Assembly (NCBI GenBank): GCA_019321725.1
Contig: CM033113.1
Span: 13,764,001-13,828,000 of the forward strand
Source of the DNA: Paulownia fortunei
Taxonomy: Eukaryota; Streptophyta; Magnoliopsida; Lamiales; Paulowniaceae
DNA length: 64,000 nucleotides
Reading direction: 5' to 3'
In this document: positions 21,739-38,716 of the stretch, one piece after another
Numbering within the stretch: the first letter of the stretch is position 1
How the letters are laid out: every line of letters starts with the position of its first letter
Notes under the pieces: model-generated
Database searches by the model: none
What the model was told of the DNA's origin: nothing
The model's input: the letters and a program-made list of their open reading frames with translations, nothing else
Translations under genes and position numbers: made by a program

Positions 21739-23040
21739 TCAAATTTTATTTTTGTAATAATGTTTCAACCTTTGTCTATTAACACAAAATAATATGCCAT
21801 CCTTACCTTTGAGCTCAACTGCCCCAAATGAAAATGTCTTGTTGATACCAGACCATCTAGATTTTAATTCCCCCCAAAAAAGTTTTAATCTAGAATTTAA
21901 AAACAACACAAGTTGTCCAGGTAAAAATTCCCTTCTCAAGATCATTTTGTCATGCTATTATTTTGTTTTTTCTTTATAGATTTTAGCATTTTCATAGGCA
22001 TCAAGCTTAAAATCCTCCATTTCATTAAGTTACAATAATCTTTTTTCTCCAATGGCCTTTGTATCAAAATTTATTATTGTACATCCCAATATACTCTATG
22101 TTCTAGCTCAACGGGGAGGTGACAAGCTTTTTCATAAACTAATCGAAAAGAAGACATACCTATAGGAGTTTTATATACTGTGCGGAATGCCTATAATGTA
22201 TCATCAAGCTTATGTGTCAATCCTTTCGTTAATGCTTATTGTTTTCTCAAAGATTTACTTCACTTCCCGATTTGAGATTTTGGCTTGTCCATTTGATTGA
22301 GGATGATATCCAAGAGCTACCTTGTGTCTTATACCGTACTTAGCCAAAAGGTTATTAAACATTTTATTATCAAAATAAGAACCTTCATCACTTACAATTA
22401 CTCTAGGTGTGCCAAAACGAGTGAAAATATATTATGTAAGAATTTAAGCACTACCTTGGCATCATTAGCAGGTGTGGCAATTGCTTTTATCCTCTTTGAA
22501 ACATAATCCACGATAAGAAAAATGTATGATCGACCATTTGATGGAGAAAATGGTCCTATGAAGTCAATTCTCCAAACATCAAAGAGTTCAAATTCCATCA
22601 TGTTTATCAAAGGAAGCTCATGGCGTATAGTAATTATTCCAGCCCTTTTACACCAGTCATATGTCTGTACTAAAGCATAACAATCCTTAAACAGAGTTGG
22701 CCAATAAAAACCAAATTGCAATACGTTAAAAGTTGTCCTTGTAGGCCCAAAATGACCACCACATAGGGATGAATGACAATGCTTTAGAATTTCATTTGTT
22801 TTCTCCATTGAAATGCATCTCCAAATCACAGAATTTAAATTTCTTTTGAAGAGCAATGGATCATCCTAGAGATATGATTTCACATCATGTAAGAATTTTT
22901 TCTTTTGATGATATTGAGGCCCAGAGCTAATAATCCACTTGCAAGATAATTCACAAAATCTGCATACTAAGGTAAATTATCTTTGATTGCCAAAATAAAC
23001 TCATTTGGGAAAAATTCTTTAATTGATCCTTCAAAGTTCT
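21739..23040 (-). pseudogene. Gypsy-1 integrase
   Basis: The longest open piece is 22398-22856 (152 codons). It contains the zinc-binding part (LKHCHSSLCGGHFGPTRTTF ... CKRAG) and the start of the catalytic core (VWRIDFIGPF, IVDYVSKRIKAI). Upstream of it IKDNLP-YADFVNYL can be read, and downstream, across frame breaks, [15 protein letters not shown] and HPQSNGQ-like residues. The C-terminal segment 21739-21945 has LFWGELKSRWSG and NRQRLKHYY. Integrase inserts the cDNA into the host genome; this copy has several breaks and is inactive. Confidence 0.85.
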
Positions 23041-23769
23041 CATTTTTCTACTCCAACCTCGAATTGTGATCGGTCACCATATTTTCACTTCTTTTCTTAT
23101 CTTTGATTTCAAGATCAAATTCTTGAAGGAGTATCCACCAAATTAGCCTTGGTTTTGCATCTTTTTTAGTAAAGAGGTACCTAATAGCAGCATGATCGGT
23201 ACACACTATCACCTTGGTACCTATAAGATAAGCACAAATGTTATCAAATGCAAAAATAATGGCTAATATTTCTTTTTTAGTGATGGTGTAATTTTGTTGG
23301 GCATCATCAAATGTTCGACTTGTATAGTAAATAACCTTAAAAATTTTATCCCTTATTTATCCTAACACCGCTCCAACTGCATAATCACTAGAATCACACA
23401 TAATCTTAAATGGTTGGGTCCAATCTAGTACCACTATAATAGGAGTTGAAATGAGAGCCTTCTTGATATGATCAAAGGTGTGTAGGTAATCATAATTAAA
23501 ATAAAATAGCTTATCTTTTTCCAAAAGATTGCACAAAGGTTTTACAATATTTTAAAAATCTTTAATGAATCTTCTATAAAACCCGGCATACCCCAAAAAA
23601 CTAAAAATACTTTCACATTGATTGGTGATGGAAGTTTTTCAATAGTAACAATTTTTGCTTGGTCTACCTTAAGTCCTTCGGAGGACACTCGATGACGTAA
23701 AATAATACCTTCTTTTGCCATAAAGTGGCATTTTTCCCAATTTAAAACAAGGTTAGTCTCCTCACATCT
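23041..23769 (-). pseudogene. Gypsy-1 RT C-terminal part and RNase H
   Basis: With several frame changes the minus strand reads CEETNLVLNWEKCHFMAKEG near 23750, VDQAKIVTIEKLPSP near 23650, then RNase H pieces including [20 protein letters not shown] near 23130. These are the thumb/connection and RNase H of OTA gypsy pol. Coding is heavily disrupted. Confidence 0.78.
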
Positions 23770-24327
23770 CTACAAAATAAGAGAAAGATTATGTAGACAT
23801 ATATCAAATGAGGAACCAAAAACTGAAAAATCATCCATAAAAACTTCAATTATATGGTCCACCATATCATGAAAAATTACCATCATGCATCTTTGAAATG
23901 TGGTTAGGGCATTGCATAATCCAAATGGACTAATACCTTTTAAATCAGAAATTGACCAACTAATAGCAGATTTATGCTCTCTTAAAATATGAAACAACTT
24001 TTCCATCTCTAAAGAAAATAGGGATGCTGAAACAATTATCAAATAAGTATTGTTAGAACCTAGAAATTCATACCACAAATGCTTGAGAAGTGCTTTCAAC
24101 TTTGGTGATATTATTTGTTCCTTGATTGTGGTATCTCCTATTGCTTTCTTGCATTTATCTTTCTTCAACTCCACCTCTCCTGATTCAAGAAAGAGCAAGT
24201 AATGCAGTAAATCCCGAATATCAATATCATGGTGATTACCTTGCATTATGGAATGAAGAATACATTGTTGTAAAGGTTCGGTAGGAATTTGTTTGAAAAA
24301 GTGATCATGCAAGCAAGTTTCTAACAT
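23770..24327 (-). pseudogene. Gypsy-1 protease-RT linker and RT, internally deleted
   Basis: An open frame of 185 codons reads MLETCLHDHFFKQIPTEPLQ, then LESGEVELKKDKCKK, LWYEFLGSNNTYLIIVSA and ISWSISDLKGISP. It then jumps straight to FGLCNALTTFQRCMM and VFMDDFSVFGSSFD. The FMDD box (RT active site) is present, but the family's fingers/palm segment between GISP and FGLCNA (roughly 150-170 residues) is deleted in frame. The frame stays open across a deletion that destroys the enzyme. Confidence 0.85.
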
Positions 24328-24904
24328 TTCAATCCTATTACAAGTATGTGTTCCTCTTGAAACTGTAATGCACGATAAATATTAAACATCACTTCATCCT
24401 TATTAACTTTTAGAGTTAATTCACCGTGTTGCACATCAATAAAAGTACGCCCAGTAGTAAGGAATGATCGACGAAGAATTAAAAGAATTTCTTGAACTTT
24501 CTCCATATTTAACACCATAAAATCTACAAGAAATATGAATTTATCTACTTTTACCATACATTTTCAACAACTCCTCTTGGATAGGTGAGAGACCTATCCG
24601 CCAATTACAGGGTGATAGTGGATGGCTTGACTTCTCTAATTCTTAATTTTCTAAAAATAGAAAGTGGCATCAAATTAATGCTTGCTCCAAGATCACATAA
24701 TGCTTTATCAAAAAAAGATCCTTATATGGTATAAGGAATAGTAAAACTCCCAAAATCCCTTAATGTTTAAGAAAGTTTTTTTTTTTCTGTAAAATGGTAC
24801 TACACTGTTATGTGAGATTCATAGTTTCAAACTCCACCAATCGTATTTTTCTTGACTTCACATCATTCATGAACTTGGCGTAGTTGGGCATTTGCTCAAG
24901 AGCA
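24321..24904 (-). pseudogene. Gypsy-1 aspartic protease and gag C-terminus
   Basis: The open part (24321-24557) reads VKVDKFIFLVDFMVLNMEK and FMVLNMEKVQEILLILRRSF, the second half of the OTA protease. Further right, across breaks, the catalytic loop ALCDLGASINLMPLS and AKFMNDVKSRKIR can be read. The sequence ends at 24904, exactly where a CL LTR starts (TGTTGTGTTCGC). Confidence 0.8.
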
Positions 24905-25135
24905 TGTTGTGTTCGCTATAATTGCAGGGGCATACTCAACGGAAAATTAAATTTTTTATCAAACATAAATATATATATCCCCTCGATTTGAAAACAGTTT
25001 TAATGATCGCGCATATATTAACAATTATTGATGTTCGTATAATCATGCTATTTGTATGCCATAATTCGATAATGCACATTGATTATATGTATATTCATGC
25101 AAGATGTTTATTATTGGCTATGAAAGAGAGAATTG
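24905..25135 (-). repeat. CL3: short fragment of a long copia LTR
   Basis: TGTTGTGTTCGCTATAATTG then GGAAAATTAAATTTTTTATC matches the beginning of CL8 at 57879 (TGTTGGGTTCACTATAATTG). About 230 bp of the LTR 3' end are present before copia protease coding resumes at about 25136. Confidence 0.65.
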
Positions 25136-25374: not shown

Positions 25375-26567
25375 TGTGATACTCGAACCTCTCACTACTT
25401 ACCTGGCCAAATATGATTCATGCATTATGTGCTAATTTTATATGCTACTTGCATTTATATTGACATTGCATATTTCATTTCTTTTATACGACATTCTTGA
25501 ATATTGAACTTAATTCTGAAGGTCTCGCACGGTATTAGTTATTGAATTTTCCAACCTAAGTGGTTGATTTTGTATTGAGATAAGAAGAAATTTAGGTATC
25601 AATATAGTAAATAGTGCATAAACATAGACATAGTAAATATTTATTTGCAACTACAATGCATATATATATATTAAATATGTGATTTATATATAATATCATA
25701 GATCATATGTGTATAGCAGAGGGCACACATTATTGTCATTCATGTCTATTGAGCATACATATATGGGCATTGGCACGTGCATGCATCATATATGAGTATT
25801 GAGATAAATCTTGCATTGTATGACATCATTTTGAGTAAGAAAAATATTTTGCTGACCACTATTAGTGCACCAAAGTATGCATGGATTTGTATTCATGTGA
25901 GTATGCATGGATTTGCATGCTTATATCATTATTGGCCATTGGATTATGATGGTGTGCAGAGCTTTTTTTCGGTGCATGGGATAGTAGCATTGGTCATAGG
26001 CACAAGAAAGAAATGATTTTGGGAGAAATATTTTGATGCATGAAATTGCATTGTGGGTATAACATTTAGAGATGCATGACTTGATATTGTGAATTATTCT
26101 TTGACATGCATAATCTTTATTTGCTGAGCATTAGCATATATAGTTTATGCATTGTAGGTGAACACAATGATGCTTGAAGCATCTTTTGCTGGTTAGGCGG
26201 CTGTTCGAGCTCCTACAGGTGTTTGAGGGAGTGTGTACATGGATGACGACCTGTTAGGCTATTTTGTTGGCTTGTTATATTTTGAGTTTGTTGTATTATA
26301 TTTTGAGAATGATGCTATATTTCAATTTTAAAATTTTGTTGTAAAAAAAAGTATGTAAATATTGTGGTCTTTGTACTTTTATATAAATATTGATCCTGCT
26401 ATATACATGACATATATGATAAAGTATTTTAAATAGGGTTGTGCATGTAAAAAGTGATTTATCCTTTCTTAAAGTATTACACACATAAAAAAAAATTCAT
26501 ACATGCACACAGGTTTTATCATGTCAAATTATACTTTATTTGTAGTTGTTGAGTAGTGGGTGTTACA
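25375..26567 (+). repeat. Solo LTR SL2 (1.2-kb class) with TSD CTTCA
   Basis: It starts TGTGATACTCGAACC and ends GTGGGTGTTACA. CTTCA occurs on both sides (25370-25374 and 26568-26572), a perfect 5-bp target-site duplication. Both ends match SL4 (inverted, 37703-40724), but about 1.8 kb in the middle is missing relative to it. The element sits inside copia gag-pol coding on the other strand. Confidence 0.92.
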
Positions 26568-30608: not shown

Positions 30609-30708
30609 NNNNNNNNNNNNNNNNNNNNNNNNNNNNNNNNNNNNNNNNNNNNNNNNNNNNNNNNNNNNNNNNNNNNNNNNNNNNNNNNNNNNNNNNNNNN
30701 NNNNNNNN
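30609..30708. other. Assembly gap (100 N)
   Basis: Exactly 100 N, the conventional placeholder length. The coding on either side implies that about 180 RT residues (some 540 bp) are missing, so the real distance must be larger than 100 bp or the two flanks do not belong together. Confidence 0.97.
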
Positions 30709-31442
30709 TAATTCTGAAAAGGTTTTGATCAGGTGTAAAGAAAAGAACCTTGTACTCAATTAGGAGAAATGCTATTTCATGGTAACAACTGGTATTGTTC
30801 TTAGATACATTATTTCAACAACAGGCGTGGAAGTAGATAAATCTAAAATTAAGTCAATTGCAAATTTGCCAATACCAAAGTCTATGAAGGAGGTAAGATC
30901 ATTTTTAGGACATGCTGGTTTTTATAGGATATTTATTAAAGATTTTAGTATAATATCTAAACCTCTGTGTAATCTTCTAACAAAAAATACTATTTTTGAA
31001 TGGACTGAAAATTGTGAAAATGCTTTTGTTATGCTTAAAAGTAGGTCGTCTGCTCCAATCATGCAACCTCCAGATTGGACTTTATTTTTTGAAATAATAT
31101 GTGATGCTAATGACTATGTTGTTAGGGCTATCTTGGGACAAATAAAAGATAAGAAATCATATGTTATTTACTATGGAAGTAAAGTTTTAAATAATGCTCA
31201 ATTGAATTATTCAACAATTGAAAAAAATTACTTGTTTTAGTTTTTGCATTGGACAAATTTAGATCTTATCTTGTTGGCGCACCAGTTGTTATTTTTAGCG
31301 ATCATGTAGCTTTGAAATATATTTTGTAAATAAAAGATGTCAAACCTAAACTAATTAGGTGGATTCTCTTACTCCAAAAATTCAACATTACGCTTCTAGA
31401 TAAGAAATGAGTAGAGAATATGGTGGCTGATTATTTATCAAT
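30709..31442 (+). pseudogene. OTA gypsy RT end and RNase H (Gypsy-3)
   Basis: Directly after the gap the frame reads NLEKVLIRCKEKNLVLN, a stop, EKCYFMVTTGIVLRYIIS. Then 30779-31240 is open: VDKSKIKSIANLPIPKSMKE, VRSFLGHAGFYRIFIKDFS, FEIICDANDYVV and IYYGSKVLNNAQLNYSTIEK. Across stops it continues SDHVALKYIL and NITLLDKK with ENMVADYLS. This is the RT connection and RNase H of an OTA element. It differs clearly from the corresponding part of Gypsy-1 (for example NITLLDKK against DLEIKDKK), whereas the part before the gap is very like Gypsy-1. I therefore treat this side as a separate element, Gypsy-3. Confidence 0.82.
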
Positions 31443-32775
31443 ACTTGTTTGTGATGACTAATTTCAACCCACACCTATTAAAGATACTTTATCTGATGAA
31501 AAACTATTTAATATTTCTATTTTACCTTAGTTTGCTGACATTGTCAATTTTCTTGTGACAGGAAAGGTGACATTGCATTAGAACTCCAAAGATAAGAATA
31601 AGTTTTTGACTGAGGTGAAAATTTTTAATTGGGATAATTCATACCTATTCAAATCTTGTCATGATCAAATCTTTTGAAAATGTGTGCCTAACAACAAGAT
31701 AGGTAATGTTATTAAATTTTATTATTCAGAAGCTTGTGGTTGGTCATTTTCGAAAAAAAAAAATCATTGCAAAGATCTTGTAATGTGGATTTTATTGGCC
31801 AACTCTTTTCAAAGACACTTACACTTTCTGCAAAAGTTGTAAAAATTATCAAAAGTTAGGATCGATTTCAAAGTAAAACATGATACCCCTATACCATATC
31901 CTAGTGATTGAAATCTTTTACTATTGGGGTATTGACTTCATGGGACCATTTTCATTATCATTTGGTTTTAATTACATATTGTTCGCCATAGATTATGTCT
32001 TAAAATAGATTGAGGCAATTCCCTATCGAAACAACGATCACAAAATAGTGATAAAAATTTTGAAAGAAAATATTTTAAGTCAATTTGGATCAGTGATGGG
32101 GGAAAATATTTTTGTAACAAACTTTTTGGAACTTTAATGAGGAAATATAGAATCATATATAAAGTTGCAACCCCTTATCACCTTCAGACAAATGGATAAG
32201 TTGAACTCTCAAATAATGAGATAAAATAAATTTTTGAAAAGACAGTTAACCTAAATCGTAAAGATTGGTCTTTTAGACTTACAGATACACTTTAATCATA
32301 TAGAACTACTTTCAAAAAATCATTATGCATGTCTATTTATAGGATAGTTTATGGAAAACCTTGTTATTTACCTGTTAAACTTTAATATAAAGCTTATTGG
32401 GCAATCAAAATGTTCAACTTCAACCTTGATGAAGCTTCAAAATTGCATAAATTACAAATCAATGAACTTCAAGAATTGAGAAATGATGCATATAAGAATT
32501 ATAAAATTCATAAAGCAAGATCAAAGATTTTCATGATAATAAAATTTCAAGAAATTTTATTGATGTTGGTCAAAAGGTTTTGCTTTATAATTCTCGATTG
32601 CATTTATTTGCTAGATAGTTGAGATTAATGTGGAGTGGTCCTTTTTTTGTAAAAGAGGTATATCCTTGTGGGACAATTGACATTGAGAATCCTAGAAATG
32701 ATAATGTATTCAAAGTAATGGACAAAGACTCAAACTATTTCTAGAAAATCAATTTTCACAAGAGAAGATTCTTTT
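31443..32775 (+). pseudogene. Gypsy-3 integrase
   Basis: With many stops the plus strand reads DIVNFLVTGKV near 31550, DKNKFLTEVKIFNWDNSYLF near 31600, and YSEACG plus FCKSCKN-like zinc-binding residues near 31720-31850. The catalytic core follows: [10 protein letters not shown] near 31925, ISDGGK near 32090 and VATPYHLQTNG near 32170. The C-terminus has MFNFNLDEASKLHKLQINEL (32410) and NVFKVMDKDSNYF near 32710. Domain order and spacing are normal for OTA integrase. It is dead but complete in outline. Confidence 0.85.
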
Positions 32776-32939
32776 TTCTTTCTAACCCTTGTTATGATTA
32801 ATGTATGTTCAAATACTTATTTTCTCTAACTTTATTATTTTATAGCCTTTCTTTCTTTTATTTTTTTCTTTTTCCAGTTAAGTAGGAGATAATTGTACTC
32901 CGTGGGTATTAAAGTCGGACTTATCAGTTTCCCAAATAA

Positions 32940-33600
32940 ATGAAATCTTTGTACAATTTTTTTTCCTCATTCTCTTTTCTTGTTCTTTTCAAAATGGATA
33001 ACATTCTTCTAACTCTCAAGAAGCAATTTTCTTTTCTTCCTAAAAATGTAATTTTAAAAATTTATAAAACCATAATTGAAAGATTAAGGATACTTATGCA
33101 TAAGGGTATCCCAAAGGACATACGATGGATAATTGAAGTAACAGTAAAAGTAGTAGGTGAGTTTTCATATGAGTCTTCAAACTTGCTTACTAGATACATG
33201 TCTGGTTTGGGTAAAAACACATATTCAAAAAAATAAAGGGAGAAAAAATACAAGTTTGTCACAAATGTGCTCGATGGACTTACAACACATAATGTCGTTC
33301 CTTAGGAATAATTTCTAAAAATCAAGAAGATAAAATTCAATTTATTATGGATAGACTGAGTAAGAAGTCTTTAGATGACATTATATTGATTATTGAGGTG
33401 CATTCATGTAGATTAGTACATCATCCAATTCTTAATTTATGGAATCACTTCTGAGATAAATATGAGCGTTATAGTTTTGAAAATCTGACATTAAAAGATC
33501 CTGTTGCCAGTTTATTAGAAAGTTAGATATAAAGCATATCCTCGACCCATTGAGGGCATTTAAGTCATTATTGAAGAAAAATTAGAGGAAGAAGTGAGCC
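32940..33600 (+). pseudogene. Unknown additional ORF between integrase and the LOG copy
   Basis: A 98-codon frame starts at 32940 (MKSLYNFFSSFSFLVLFKMD) and reads on through VILKIYKTIIERLRILMHKG, DIRWIIEVTVKVVGEFSYES and LLTRYMSGLGKNTYSKK. After a stop, KYKFVTNVLDGLTTHN and, in shifted frame, MDRLSKKSLDDIILIIEVHS can be read to about 33480. I do not recognise it. It lies where some OTA elements carry an extra ORF after pol, and immediately upstream of the LOG-like sequence. It could be an N-terminal extension of the captured gene, an element-specific accessory protein or chance. Its hydrophobic start is not a convincing signal peptide. Confidence 0.4.
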
Positions 33601-33789
33601 ACAGTCACAATTACATATATATTCATGTGTAAGTAGATAATTTTTAAAATTTGTGTGATTAATTTCAACCATTCTAACAAAAGAGAAAAGCGTGCGATAA
33701 ATACATTCCCTGTTCACATCTCAATAAATAACACCGTACTTACTCCATTTTGCACAACTCATTTCAAAAAAAGAAAAAAGAAAAAAAAT

Positions 33790-34443
33790 AATAGAAGTCT
33801 CTTCCACTCACAAGTTTTATTGTATTTTTACCTTTTATGGATCCAATCCAGGAAAAAATGATGAGTTTATAGGGGCAGCTCAAAACCTTGGTAGAACATT
33901 AGCAGAAAGAAAAATTTATTTAGTGTATGGGGAGGCAATCTGGGATTAATAGGGAATGTTACTACTTCTGCTCTTGTAGGATGAGTCAAAGTTTTAGGAG
34001 TTATCCCAAAACCTTTAACAATACAGAATATCACAGGTATGACCATCAAAGATGAGCTAAAAGTGTCACGTATTCATGATAGAATGCCTGATATGTTAAA
34101 CAATGCAGATGCATTCATCACCCTACCTAGTGGTTTTGGTACACTGAAAAAGTTATTTTAAGTTATCTCTTGGGCACAACTCAACTTTCACCAAAAACTT
34201 ATAGGTATGTTTAATGTTAATGGTTTTTATAATGGTTTGCTATATTTTGTAGATCATGCTGTGGAAAAAGGTTTTATTTCACCGTCTACAAGACGAATCC
34301 TTATTTCTACTTCAACACTTGACTAATTCATTGATCAACTTCTAGCATATGTGCCAGAACTTGATCCAGCCTTGGCCGATGTGGATTGGTCCAATAGGGA
34401 GAGTGGTTGAAAATGCAAAATAAATTTGACTCTCAGCCCATGA
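33790..34443 (+). pseudogene. LOG-like cytokinin riboside 5'-monophosphate phosphoribohydrolase, intronless decayed copy
   Basis: LOG enzymes release active cytokinin bases from their nucleotides in the cytosol. Here the frame reads YGSNPGKND (33836), then FIGAAQNLGRTLAERKIYLV. After a one-base deletion near 33930 comes NLGLIGNVTTSALVG. Then VLGVIPKPLTIQNITGMTIK, ELKVSRIHDRMPDMLNNADA, FITLPSGFGTLKK (34114-34152), VISWAQLNFHQKLIGMFNVN, FVDHAVEKGFISPSTRRI and LLAYVPELDPALADVDW, ending KINLTLSP with TGA at 34441-34443. Plant LOG genes have several introns; none is present, which suggests passage through RNA. The signature PGGxGTxxE is changed to P-S-G-F-G-T-L-K-K, losing the Gly and the Glu. At least four stops are present. 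It sits between gypsy integrase and the terminal polypurine tract/LTR, so it appears to be cargo of the element. Short segments of weak identity cannot tell which LOG paralogue was the donor. Confidence 0.85.
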
Positions 34444-35779
34444 AATTTATCCTTAATGGTTTCAACTAATAGTATGTTTTGCGTTATTTCAGCTTTATTT
34501 TTTCAATAAGCTATATTTCAGGTAATATTTTTTAAACTCTACTTTTCTATCTATTTTTGACATTAAGGACAATGTCTCCATTAGGTTGGGGACGGGGATA
34601 GTTGATATCATGTCTTGTGTGTTGAATGTGTGTTTTTCTAGTTTTTTTAATTTAAGCATGTTTTCTTTTGGGTCCATTTAACCATAAGTAACGGTGACTA
34701 AAGTAAAGGGTAATCTTTTGACACTCTTGAAAAGCACCCCTATTTTTTTTTACATAACATGGTATGTTTGTGAAGTTTTTAATTGAAAATTTGTGAATTG
34801 TCAAAATATAATAATAGCAATCCTCTGTTTGTTAGAGTCCAAGGGTGTTATCTTAAAAAATATATTAGTCTTGTTCACATCCTAAACTTTGTGGAATGAT
34901 TGGTTCTGATATATATATATATACATATATAACTGAAAATTTCGATCATGTTAAAGTTTTTACTTTTTAATATTCACACATCTTTTGTGAATAAATGGAG
35001 AGTTTCAGAAAACAAGTATTCTAAACTTTAATTGATCATTTGAATTGGTTTCGTTGTAATTTGAGATGCTTAATTATGTTTACCTTGCATGTGGAGAAAT
35101 GAATTAGGTAAATCTTTGTAGTTATCTATTTCTACTGACATATTTCGCTTTGTAGCTAGTGATGTGAGTATAATTATAAATCTTTCTTTTGATCTTTTAT
35201 TATCATGCGAGTGATGTTGTAAAAAAAACATTAAAAAAAACACAAAAAAAAAACAAAGAAAAAACCCCAAAAAAAAAAAATATCACCATTTCATTTTCAG
35301 GTTAACCAATGAAATTTTGAGGTATATTTTGGTAAGACAGACTAGGTATTTCAAATTTTGTGACTACCCTATCTTATACTCAATTTTTGTTGAATGCTTT
35401 GTCCTAAATCATTTAAGTAGTTTCGCTAAGTGTATTTATTATTTCCTAATTCCATGAGTGAATACCTTACCAACTTAAATGGAAAACACTTACCTGTGAC
35501 GATATGGAGTTTAGGCTTTTTCATGATTGATTTTGAAGTTATATATATCTTGGTCTATGGAATAAAATTTTGGCTTAGTGCACATACGCACAACATCTTT
35601 TGGAAATTCTAAAAATAAAAAAGTAAAATATCCCGATAACATCTGTGATCACTAACAAATGATTGTTTGTGATTTTTAGATTGTTTTATAGGTTTGTTTT
35701 AAATTGTGATCATCATGTAATGTTATTTTTTATTTGTATTGCATTTCATTACGCTATAATTACTAGGAACTAGTAATAA
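34444..35779 (+). other. Gypsy-3 non-coding 3' region with internal polypurine tract
   Basis: At 34558-34597 the plus strand reads GACATTAAGGACAATGTCTC, then CATTAGGTTGGGGACGGGGA. This is the post-pol motif of OTA elements, also seen inverted in Gypsy-1 at 21411. It places the LOG copy upstream of the element's own 3' non-coding region. The rest is AT-rich with a TA run (34908-34930) and an A-rich run (35221-35280). No coding signal was found. Confidence 0.65.
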
Positions 35780-35792
35780 GTTTGTTGGGGGG
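35780..35792 (+). other. Gypsy-3 terminal polypurine tract
   Basis: GTTTGTTGGGGGG lies directly before the TG of the LTR, the normal plus-strand priming site. Confidence 0.75.
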
Positions 35793-37411
35793 TGTAATGA
35801 ATATTTAAAAATATACAATTAATTAGGATTTATATAATTATTTTCACTTTGAATTGTCATTAGAACTCCCAATTAAAGTATTTTTTTGCTTTAGGAATAA
35901 AATGAGAAATCAACATAAAAAAAAAAAGATTAAAAGGTTTTATCCTTTTTTGTGCAGGTTTTACAGAAACTAGTGTAACTTTTGATTCCAAAATGGTTTT
36001 GGGTTAATTCTTAAGACTATGGATTAATACGTCATTCATCTAGAAATTCATGCAAACTTTGGATCTCATATTTAATGTGTAAGGATTAAAGAAGTTGGAT
36101 TACAAGTGGTTGTACAAAATAGATCACCAAAATTCGGATTAGAGTTAAGCCTAGTCCTAACCTATTTTAACAATTGGGTTGTATCTCTTTCGTACAAATT
36201 TCTTTTGGCTAAAATTTAGATATGTTATACCTAGAGGTAGATAAACATGTTTTTTCAAGATTTCATAAATATGATGCAATGCACTGATGATGTTGAAAGA
36301 TGACTCTTGAATATGATCCTGTAATTTAGCCATATCTCTCTCATTCTGCACCCAAATTTGACCAATGACATATGCAAATATATAAAGAAATAAATATCTA
36401 CAACTTTTATTCTTTACCCTTCATCAATATATGGTTGTATCTAGTCCGAAAATTTAATTCAATCAAATAGGTGAAAATTTAGAGGATTTGTTGTAACAAC
36501 TTACCAACTTTTGACAACTAGCATATCACTTGATTTTTTTACTCCTCCATTATATGTTTGGCCTCTAGCATACTAAAAACACTATAAATAGGCCATGTAT
36601 TATGCTTGTAAGAGTGGGGGGCTAAAGAGGAAAATAAGTTTTATTGTTATCTTTCTTTAGGCAAAGTTTTCTAGTAGTAATAGAAATGTGTTCTCTAGTT
36701 TCTCTTCTATTTTTAGTCTTTTCTACTTTAATTATGTCTTTTTAAATTTTATTTAGTTGAGGAAAAAGGGTGAATCTCTTGATAGAGGGAGATGAATGGT
36801 TATAAAGGTAGAAATGTTTAAGTGTGTTGTATTATTATTTTAATTTTTGATCTAAATCCTACTTGTTTTGTCGTGATTCTTGATTTATATATCACTAATG
36901 GCACAACAAATATTTAGGTTCATTTAGCTAGATATTTAATTTTACTACACTAACTGCTAATATGAAACTTTGATTTGTTGTAGACAAAGGTGTGTATAAA
37001 TACTTGATCCCATAAACAAGTGTTGGCATTAAGAAATAATTTGCAAATAGTAAGACAATATTATGATTACCTTAATGCATGAGTTATTTGATAACATCTT
37101 CCCATTGGAAGCTTCATTATGTATGGATTTCAATAGTGGCAATTAAAAAAGGTAAAAAAAATAAATAATCATTTCTCTATCCAAAACTCAAGAGCGGATC
37201 CATAATCCTCAATACTTTTATTAATTTTGTTTTTTTAGTTATATCATGCATTATTTTTTTTATATTCTAAACCACATAAAATCCATCTTTTTTTTTAGAA
37301 ATATAATCCAAGAATCTTCAAATAACTTTCTTGTGAATCGACCTCAAACTCAAGAGAAATTTATTACTTGACACAACCTGCACTTGGATTTGCAACCTTA
37401 AAGTTGTGGCA
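35793..37411 (+). repeat. OTA gypsy LTR (Gypsy-3/Gypsy-4 shared LTR)
   Basis: 1619 bp, from TGTAATGAATATT to GTTGTGGCA. It is preceded by a polypurine tract as a 3' LTR would be, and followed by AGTTTT plus a PBS as a 5' LTR would be. It is not colinear with the Gypsy-2 LTR at 26798, so it belongs to another OTA family. Confidence 0.78.
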
Positions 37412-37417
37412 AGTTTT

Positions 37418-37434
37418 TGGCGCCATTGTCAGGG
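37418..37434 (+). other. Primer binding site downstream of the shared LTR
   Basis: TGGCGCCATTGTCAGGG, the OTA tRNA-Asp-type site, 6 bp after the LTR end. It marks the start of another internal region. Confidence 0.82.
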
Positions 37435-37702
37435 TATGAAAGGTAAGTATTCAGGTTTTTAAATATTTTTCCTTTATAAAAATTTTGTTTATCTTCTTTA
37501 TTATTATATGGCCATATGGTATCATTGTTATAATTCTCAACATTTATTTAGAAATAATTCTGAAACTTTGTTTGGAAATTTATTTGAGTCATCTCCACAC
37601 ACTTCCACCATGGCTGAAATAAAAGTGTCAAAGATGAAAATGAGAGAGTGTGTAATATATATGAATTATGTATATATCGGAGAGTGATGTATTATATGTA
37701 TC
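37435..37702 (+). pseudogene. Gypsy-4 leader and first gag codons (truncated)
   Basis: After the PBS comes an AT-rich leader and an ATG at 37610 in a good context (CCACCATGG) reading MAEIKVSKMKMRECVIYMNY, with a stop after about 25 codons. A solo LTR then interrupts it. The position and basic start fit an OTA gag N-terminus, but the sequence itself is not diagnostic. Confidence 0.45.
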
Positions 37703-38344
37703 TGTAACACCCACATTACTACACAACTAGATATATAGTATAATTTGACATGATAGAACCTGTGTGCATGGATGGAATATTTTTTTTTTTGTAACACTTT
37801 AAAAAAGATAAATCACTTCTTACATGCACAACCCTGTTCAAAATACTTTCTAACACATGTCAAGTATATAGCAGGATCAGTATTTATATAAAAGCACAAC
37901 ACCCACAATGACCTAATATTTACATACTTATTTACAGTAAAGTTTTAAAAGCAAAATATAGTACCAGTCTAAAAATATAATACAACAGACTCAAAATATA
38001 ACAAGCCAACAAAGTAGCCCAGCAGGTCGTCATCCATGTACACACTCTCAGACACCTACAGGAGCTCCAACCGCCACCCACCCAGTAAAAGATACTTCAA
38101 GCGTTGTCGTACTCACCGACAATGCATAAACTATATGAGCTAACACTCAGCAAGTAATGATTATGCATGTTAAAGAATAATCCACAATATCAAGTCATGC
38201 ATTCAAAATGCTATGCCCACAATGTAATTTTATGCATAAAATATTTCTCTCAAAATCATTTCTTTCTTGGGCCCTTGACCAACATTACTATCCCATACAC
38301 CAGAAAAGAGCTCTGTACACCGCCATAGTTCAATGGCCAATAAT

Positions 38345-38450
38345 CATATAAGCATGCAAATCCATGCATGCTCATACGCATGCAAATCCATGCACGCGAA
38401 CCTGCAAATCCATGCATAAAACCATGCAAATCCATGCATGCTTTGGTGCA
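38345..38450. repeat. Short ATGCAAATCCATGCATGC repeats
   Basis: Five copies of (A)TGCAAATCCATGCA, spaced irregularly by 15-30 bp, lie in SL4. The unit is nearly palindromic (CCATGCATG). SL2 and SL3 carry only two or three corresponding GCATGGATTTGCATGC units at 25890-25925 and around 44390, so the array length varies between copies. Confidence 0.75.
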
Positions 38451-38492
38451 CTAGTAGTGGTCAGCAAAATATTTTCCTTTCTCAGAATCATG

Positions 38493-38716
38493 CCGTGCAA
38501 TGCAAGATTTATCATAATGCTCGTATATGATGCATGCACGTACCAATAACAATGCCTATGTATGTATATTCAATGGACATGAATGATAGTAATGTGTATC
38601 AATACCGTACAATGCAAGATTTATCATAATGCTCGTATATGATGCATGCACGTACCAATGACAATGCCCATGTATGTATATTCAATGGACATGAATGATA
38701 GTAATGTGTATCCTCT
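38493..38716. repeat. 112-bp tandem duplication inside SL4
   Basis: CCGTGCAATGCAAGATTTA (38493) recurs as CCGTACAATGCAAGATTTA (38605), and the match continues to AGTAATGTGTATC with only a few changes. SL2, SL3 and SL1 have one copy of this block. Confidence 0.9.

Follow-up and report, generated by a model that had tools for sequence, protein, structure and literature searches.

The window, by which we mean the whole 64,000-nucleotide stretch of Paulownia fortunei DNA analyzed here, contains a decayed retrotransposon. To the right of an assembly gap of 100 N (30609-30708), its features follow the order RNase H, integrase, remnant of a second ORF, LOG, internal polypurine-like motif, G run and LTR-like start (Table 1). 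As the initial annotation had described, the integrase lies upstream of the LOG in the same orientation, with matches up to position 32714, and the LOG is followed by polypurine-tract-like motifs and an LTR-like start. Its proposed order of integrase, LOG, polypurine tract and LTR holds, but it had missed a second accessory ORF placed at 32994-33546 between the integrase and the LOG. Both accessory ORFs have matches only at 32994-34437 and nowhere else in the window.

Table 1. Features of the LOG-bearing element, in window positions.
Feature	Coordinates	Strand	Evidence
RNase H / connection region of pol, decayed	30986..31734	+	tblastn of Primulina P0095 and Populus P0118 gene models; right of assembly gap
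Integrase of LOG-bearing element, decayed	31709..32714	+	tblastn of Citrus P0099 and Primulina P0105, ~60-63% in longer matches
Second accessory ORF remnant, basic zinc-finger type, broken over frames	32994..33546	+	tblastn of P0127, P0143, P0133 and P0148
Linker after zinc-finger ORF	33547..33613	+	16% mismatch to L001, 61 of 62 bases aligned
902-bp segment holding LOG; L001 has 123 bp	33614..34515	+	limits of L001 blastn matches
LOG remnant with frameshift, four stops and altered PGGxGTxxE	33797..34443	+	protein alignment, Pfam, solved-structure match
Internal polypurine-tract-like motif	34560..34600	+	sequence; 34516-34591 matches L001 2533-2606, 74%, E 9e-7
G run (polypurine tract) adjoining LTR start	35787..35792	+	sequence
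LTR, start TGTAATG, end approximate (set by PBS-like motif at 37418)	35793..37415	+	motif only

The LOG homology is far above chance and belongs to a dead copy. A tblastn alignment with a Paulownia relative of 217 residues (P0003) covered residues 3-216 in two pieces: 33797-33931 matched residues 3-47 with 78% identity, and 33931-34437 matched residues 48-216 with 73% identity in another frame. The change of frame between the pieces implies one frameshift, to which four in-frame stops are added; the PGGxGTxxE motif was changed to PSGFGTLKK, and the catalytic Glu is absent. The second piece matched Pfam PF03641 (E 2e-28), the first piece (44 residues) gave no Pfam match by itself, and the best solved structure was Arabidopsis At2g37210 (E 1.7e-38). 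Congruently, the initial claim of a LOG-like sequence at this place was confirmed by the P0003, PF03641 and At2g37210 matches, and the claim that the copy is dead was borne out by the frameshift, the stops and the altered motif. When ten LOG proteins were run against the window by tblastn, this was the only LOG that they matched.

We judged the element to be an Athila-like (OTA) member of Ty3/gypsy from its layout, in which the integrase is followed by a long 3' region containing a polypurine tract and an LTR recognized by motif only, and from a PBS type that we assume to be that of Athila. No second LTR copy was found within the window. The assembly gap parts the LOG-side pol from the upstream gag, protease and RT. 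Because the pol to the left of the gap is 85% identical to a minus-strand element (23.9-24.9 kb) and the right-hand pol 65%, with different pol domains being compared, the gag-pol across the gap may be chimeric, with pieces from different element subfamilies. The element of the initial annotation thus stands for its integrase-LOG-LTR part, while the gag that it connected with LOG may come from a different element. The integrases of the LOG-bearing gene models were ~60-63% identical to the right-hand integrase in the longer matches and 34-44% identical to the minus-strand integrase in long matches, with higher values in short ones. That minus-strand copy is part of a second gypsy remnant at 21787-24905. 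In the region 35793-37440 the PBS-like motif at 37418 follows the LTR-like stretch, which suggests that a further internal region starts at this point, and positions 37703-38597 match 25725-26567 in inverted orientation (80%), as elements sharing or abutting an LTR would.

In a fusion search with the LOG padded to polyprotein length, 27 proteins were recovered at E<=0.001 among 2763 candidates. Five of them carry the integrase core PF00665 and LOG PF03641 in one gene model (P0095, P0101 and P0105 from Primulina, P0099 from Citrus and P0118 from Populus), in all five with LOG on the C-terminal side of the integrase; the remaining proteins include bacterial, fungal and unrelated fusions. A gag-like start is joined to LOG in the Acer models P0096, P0112 and P0115, where Pfam gave a gag match in P0112 alone, with a score below the cut-off. 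The start of the zinc-finger ORF runs straight into LOG in Citrus P0098, and a linker matching window positions 33547-33613 stands just before LOG in Citrus P0099. Our LOG protein search returned 94 proteins among 132 candidates, some of them bacterial in appearance. The plants named among the matches were Paulownia, Rehmannia, Orobanche, Reevesia, Pterospermum and Populus, one Orobanche cluster representing 328 sequences, and open LOG ORFs were present in Lamiales, Malvales and Populus. No relatives turned up in viral contigs scanned with P0003, P0027 and the zinc-finger alignment. In P0109 from Cuscuta campestris a divergent LOG-like N-terminus is joined to a retrotransposon-like PF22936 sequence, perhaps through a separate uptake of LOG.

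We built a LOG tree of 36 rows, leaving out 4 further short or odd gene models. Its 27 element-type rows, many of them assigned to elements only by their grouping in the tree, formed one clade (99/96) apart from the 4 host rows (100/98). The window LOG grouped with Paulownia and P0008 (99/96), within a set of 8 that includes Rehmannia and Orobanche (100/98). This placement points to Lamiales, the order of Paulownia, as the probable source of the window. Placing the Acer-type rows with the hosts by constraint was rejected weakly (p-AU 0.035) and, with four host LOG rows in the tree, a nearer donor paralogue may exist. The host C-terminus was present in only two gene models, P0100 and P0103. Because integrase-LOG gene models occur in three genera and the element LOGs form a single clade, the LOG is, judging from these sequences, a part of the element. 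The initial proposal that a gypsy element captured and spread a LOG was sustained by these gene models, the open ORFs and the clade, with the correction that the element carries a further accessory ORF besides LOG.

Two other origins of the arrangement have to be weighed against this. It is highly improbable that the LOG arrived as a processed pseudogene in the window copy only: the remnant is intronless when compared with the 217-residue relatives, and decayed, as such an insertion might be, but integrase-LOG gene models are found in Primulina, Citrus and Populus, a matching linker precedes LOG in Citrus, and the sole direct repeat in 33500-34620 does not flank the LOG. The lone pseudogene, which had been named beforehand as the case that would speak against capture, was rejected, as the integrase-LOG arrangement recurs in other genera. 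We give just as little credence to the zinc-finger/LOG pair being an assembly artefact around the 100-N gap. The gap at 30609-30708 and the difference between the pol pieces on its two sides would allow it; however, the integrase, the zinc-finger ORF, the LOG and the LTR start all lie to the right of the gap, the region is collinear with L001 (see below) up to the LOG, and the order recurs in gene models of other species.

A single locus was confirmed among the bacterial genomes of the collection searched, a contig of 3,330 bp (L001; DAIEQH010000041.1, 1-3330), which is apparently plant retrotransposon DNA filed in a Candidatus Nomurabacteria bin; P0163, filed under Clostridioides difficile, is likewise apparently misplaced. 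L001 holds an integrase ORF, an open zinc-finger ORF of 186 amino acids and a polypurine motif. A search with six LOG proteins found no LOG in this contig, which ends 983 bp after the zinc-finger ORF. By blastn, L001 is collinear with window positions 31227-33613 (70% DNA identity) and matches 34516-34591 (74%, E 9e-7). Between these two matches lie 902 bp in the window and 123 bp in L001; therefore, LOG was inserted relative to L001 or lost in L001, and a loss could account for the LOG-less state.

The comparison of L001 with the window also allowed us to estimate the selection on both coding regions. The zinc-finger ORF had a dN/dS of 0.28 over 170 codons, with 10 codons skipped for indels and 2 window stops, against 0.96 and 1.09 in the wrong frames (Fisher p 5e-9). 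For the RNase H-integrase region the value was 0.13 over 412 codons, with 42 codons skipped and 12 stops, against 1.01 and 1.34 in the wrong frames (Fisher p 8e-47). The dN/dS of 0.28 indicates that the zinc-finger ORF was under protein-level constraint, that is, purifying selection. The linkers flanking this ORF, gapped bases left out, showed mismatches of 18% (over 153 aligned bases out of 192) and 16% (over 61 out of 62), both below the synonymous difference of the ORF (50%). Since the linkers are less diverged than the synonymous sites, the comparison hints at cis-acting signals in them; the linker after the ORF lies at window 33547-33613 and L001 2348-2409. A pyrimidine-rich tract ending in CAG stands before the zinc-finger ORF in the window (32850-32877) and in L001 (1643-1661), and is a possible splice acceptor.

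The character of the second accessory ORF was outlined by Primulina P0105, in which PF01623 (carlavirus nucleic-acid-binding protein) matched between the integrase and the LOG with 21.1 bits (cut-off 20.9). Used as a query, this stretch recovered 55 proteins of 55 candidates, 51 of them with precomputed PF01623; the named sources were Populus, Rhamnella, Parasponia and one entry filed under Clostridioides. Among 49 aligned relatives, 48 matched PF05515 (best 1.1e-8) and 46 matched PF01623 (best 4.5e-8) at E<=0.01, a level reached by just two other families, with one member each. The curated cut-off of each of the two families was passed by 8 of 10 scanned relatives, and the L001 ORF scored 34.1 bits for PF05515 (cut-off 23) and 20.4 for PF01623 (cut-off 20.9). 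None of ten reversed or shuffled controls matched either family; five matched other families weakly, with 0.0016 as the best value. The window's own pieces of this ORF gave no Pfam match, and its membership follows from tblastn with the open relatives. The AlphaFold model of the protein was poor (pLDDT 55.2), so the fold search was not used as proof: none of its 22 structure matches was significant (best E 0.35), although the top four were viral silencing suppressors or nucleic-acid-binding proteins, which we take to be of flexiviruses. A search of solved structures with the zinc-finger profile gave nothing significant either (best E 0.08). When a basic/four-cysteine motif of 23 residues was masked, the viral match was kept in none of five proteins; the match thus does not establish shared descent beyond that motif. 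At the level of sequence, then, the second ORF appears to encode a basic zinc-finger protein that resembles the nucleic-acid-binding proteins of flexiviruses. According to the consulted parts of two papers, viral cysteine-rich proteins of this kind act as silencing suppressors or as a transcription factor (PMC3689765, PMC12172455).

Next, we compared the substrate pocket of the element LOGs, which carry PF03641 and the LOG fold, with that of CgLOG, in which Arg99 and Glu122 are catalytic and Met96, His97, Lys100, Glu125 and Trp129 lie at the prenyl site, as given in the consulted part of PMC4979012. Arg99 is kept in 26 and Glu122 in 24 of 30 element rows, and both together in 21; Trp129 is kept in 29 and His97 in 8. 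Lys100 and Glu125 are each kept in 3 of 30, namely the three Acer-type rows, which keep all residues checked, and both are lost in 26, the Glu125 position of the window copy not being readable. Glu122 is lost in the three Citrus rows. In host and bacterial rows, the labels of four bacterial ones having been assigned by us, Lys100, Glu122 and Glu125 are each present in 10 of 10, Arg99 in 9 (P0103 is garbled around this position), and His97 and Trp129 in 8 each.

The C-terminal end is also distinctive. An LxLxL motif lies within the last 12 residues of 38 of the 46 full-length LOG matches (205-230 aa), against 1.5% of shuffles, and a basic cluster stands near the end in 42 of 46. The eight that lack LxLxL are two Acer-type tails ending in RRRLD, Orobanche P0024, P0034, P0060, P0061, P0065 and P0071. 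We presume these tail features to be EAR-like and NLS-like. The AlphaFold model of Populus P0027 (pLDDT 85.9) had PDB 2a33 as its best match and a disordered tail, with residues 201-217 below 50. In NCBIfam, P0027 and P0018 score above the cut-off of TIGR00730 and below that of the LOG equivalog; the two Arabidopsis LOG stretches likewise fall short of the latter, so this test does not discriminate.

The functional readings of both proteins can be weighed on these results. Because 26 of 30 rows have lost Lys100 and Glu125, cytokinin activation by the element LOG seems doubtful. It is accordingly unlikely, in our estimation, that this protein is a working cytokinin-activating enzyme that would raise host cytokinin and cell division to the benefit of the element: the fold is kept, 21 of 30 rows retain Arg99 and Glu122, and the three Acer-type rows retain every residue checked, but two adenine/prenyl-site residues are replaced nearly throughout (their role is taken from part of PMC4979012), and Glu122 is missing in the Citrus rows. 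The suggestion of the initial annotation that the element could influence host cytokinin is weakened to the same extent, and an active enzyme is possible chiefly in Acer-type elements. For the zinc-finger ORF, the alternative is an old element protein whose flexivirus likeness arose by convergence or through a shared short nucleic-acid-binding motif, and we grant it a substantial chance, although short of an even one. The loss of the match in all five masked proteins, the different cysteine spacing and the non-significant structure matches speak for it. On the other hand, PF05515 matches span 50-90 residues and reach E values as low as 1.1e-8, only two other families reach E<=0.01, with one member each, and the four top structure matches, though not significant, are viral suppressors or nucleic-acid-binding proteins.

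Taken jointly, the observations are best explained, with a probability of about 0.6, by a dead Athila-like element with two sense accessory ORFs after its integrase, a zinc-finger ORF and then LOG. The zinc-finger ORF would have been present first. LOG would have been added once, between this ORF and the internal polypurine tract, and would then have been retargeted by a basic LxLxL tail and a changed substrate pocket. The retargeted LOG may act for the element, probably in the nucleus, as an accessory protein that binds or hydrolyses nucleotides, and the zinc-finger protein may counter silencing or control transcription like its viral look-alikes; an increase in host cytokinin is a less likely possibility. 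A more far-reaching version, which we advance tentatively, is that an Athila-like lineage took up a flexivirus silencing-suppressor-type gene, which stayed under selection in it, and later gained a host LOG that it retargeted with a repressor-type (LxLxL, EAR-like) nuclear tail, to form a two-protein host-manipulating cassette. Transfer in the opposite direction, with flexiviruses acquiring their cysteine-rich proteins from elements of this sort, is just as conceivable.

Those accessory genes of LTR retrotransposons that could act on host defence or signalling are mostly without known function. Should the zinc-finger ORF and the flexivirus suppressors have a common origin, genes would have flowed between RNA viruses and retrotransposons, and the ORF would be a concrete candidate for silencing evasion by such an element. 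The element LOGs kept the fold of a hormone enzyme with an altered substrate pocket, so that direct tests for a new substrate or for a role other than catalysis are feasible.

Steinbauerova 2011 reportedly contains a finding on Athila. PMC9289625 has already described LOG (YgdH) ORFs in gypsy elements from Citrus and Populus and, in the part consulted, cites that work. We found no description of a zinc-finger ORF in a LOG-bearing gypsy element in searches of one open-access library, nor a mention in the main text of PMC9289625. The open-access literature on LOG retrotransposons, in the portions that came up without a dedicated search, likewise held no account of the pocket and tail changes or of a LOG-less relative. 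The second accessory ORF, its purifying selection, the LOG-less relative and the pocket and tail changes are thus apparently new.

Compared with known systems, our elements share with those of PMC9289625 a LOG-family ORF in a gypsy element and the occurrence in Citrus and Populus; beyond what the consulted part of that paper gives, they extend to Lamiales and Malvales, carry the zinc-finger ORF, show changes in pocket and tail, and have a LOG-less relative. The Phalaenopsis gypsy elements in the same source also carry an enzyme as an extra ORF, but a different one, an AlkB RNA demethylase with activity shown in vitro (PMC9289625, consulted in part). With the flexivirus nucleic-acid-binding proteins (PF05515, PF01623) the zinc-finger protein shares a small size and a basic stretch followed by a four-cysteine finger; unlike them, it sits in a retrotransposon, its match disappears once the motif is masked, and its cysteines are spaced C-x2-C-x4-C-x3-C, against C-x2-C-x9-C-x4-C in potato virus H. 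Finally, the element LOG has the fold and often the catalytic Arg/Glu of the plant LONELY GUY proteins (Arabidopsis At2g37210, At5g11950), but differs from them in being element-borne, in the replacement of Lys100 and Glu125 outside the Acer type, and in its added basic LxLxL tail.
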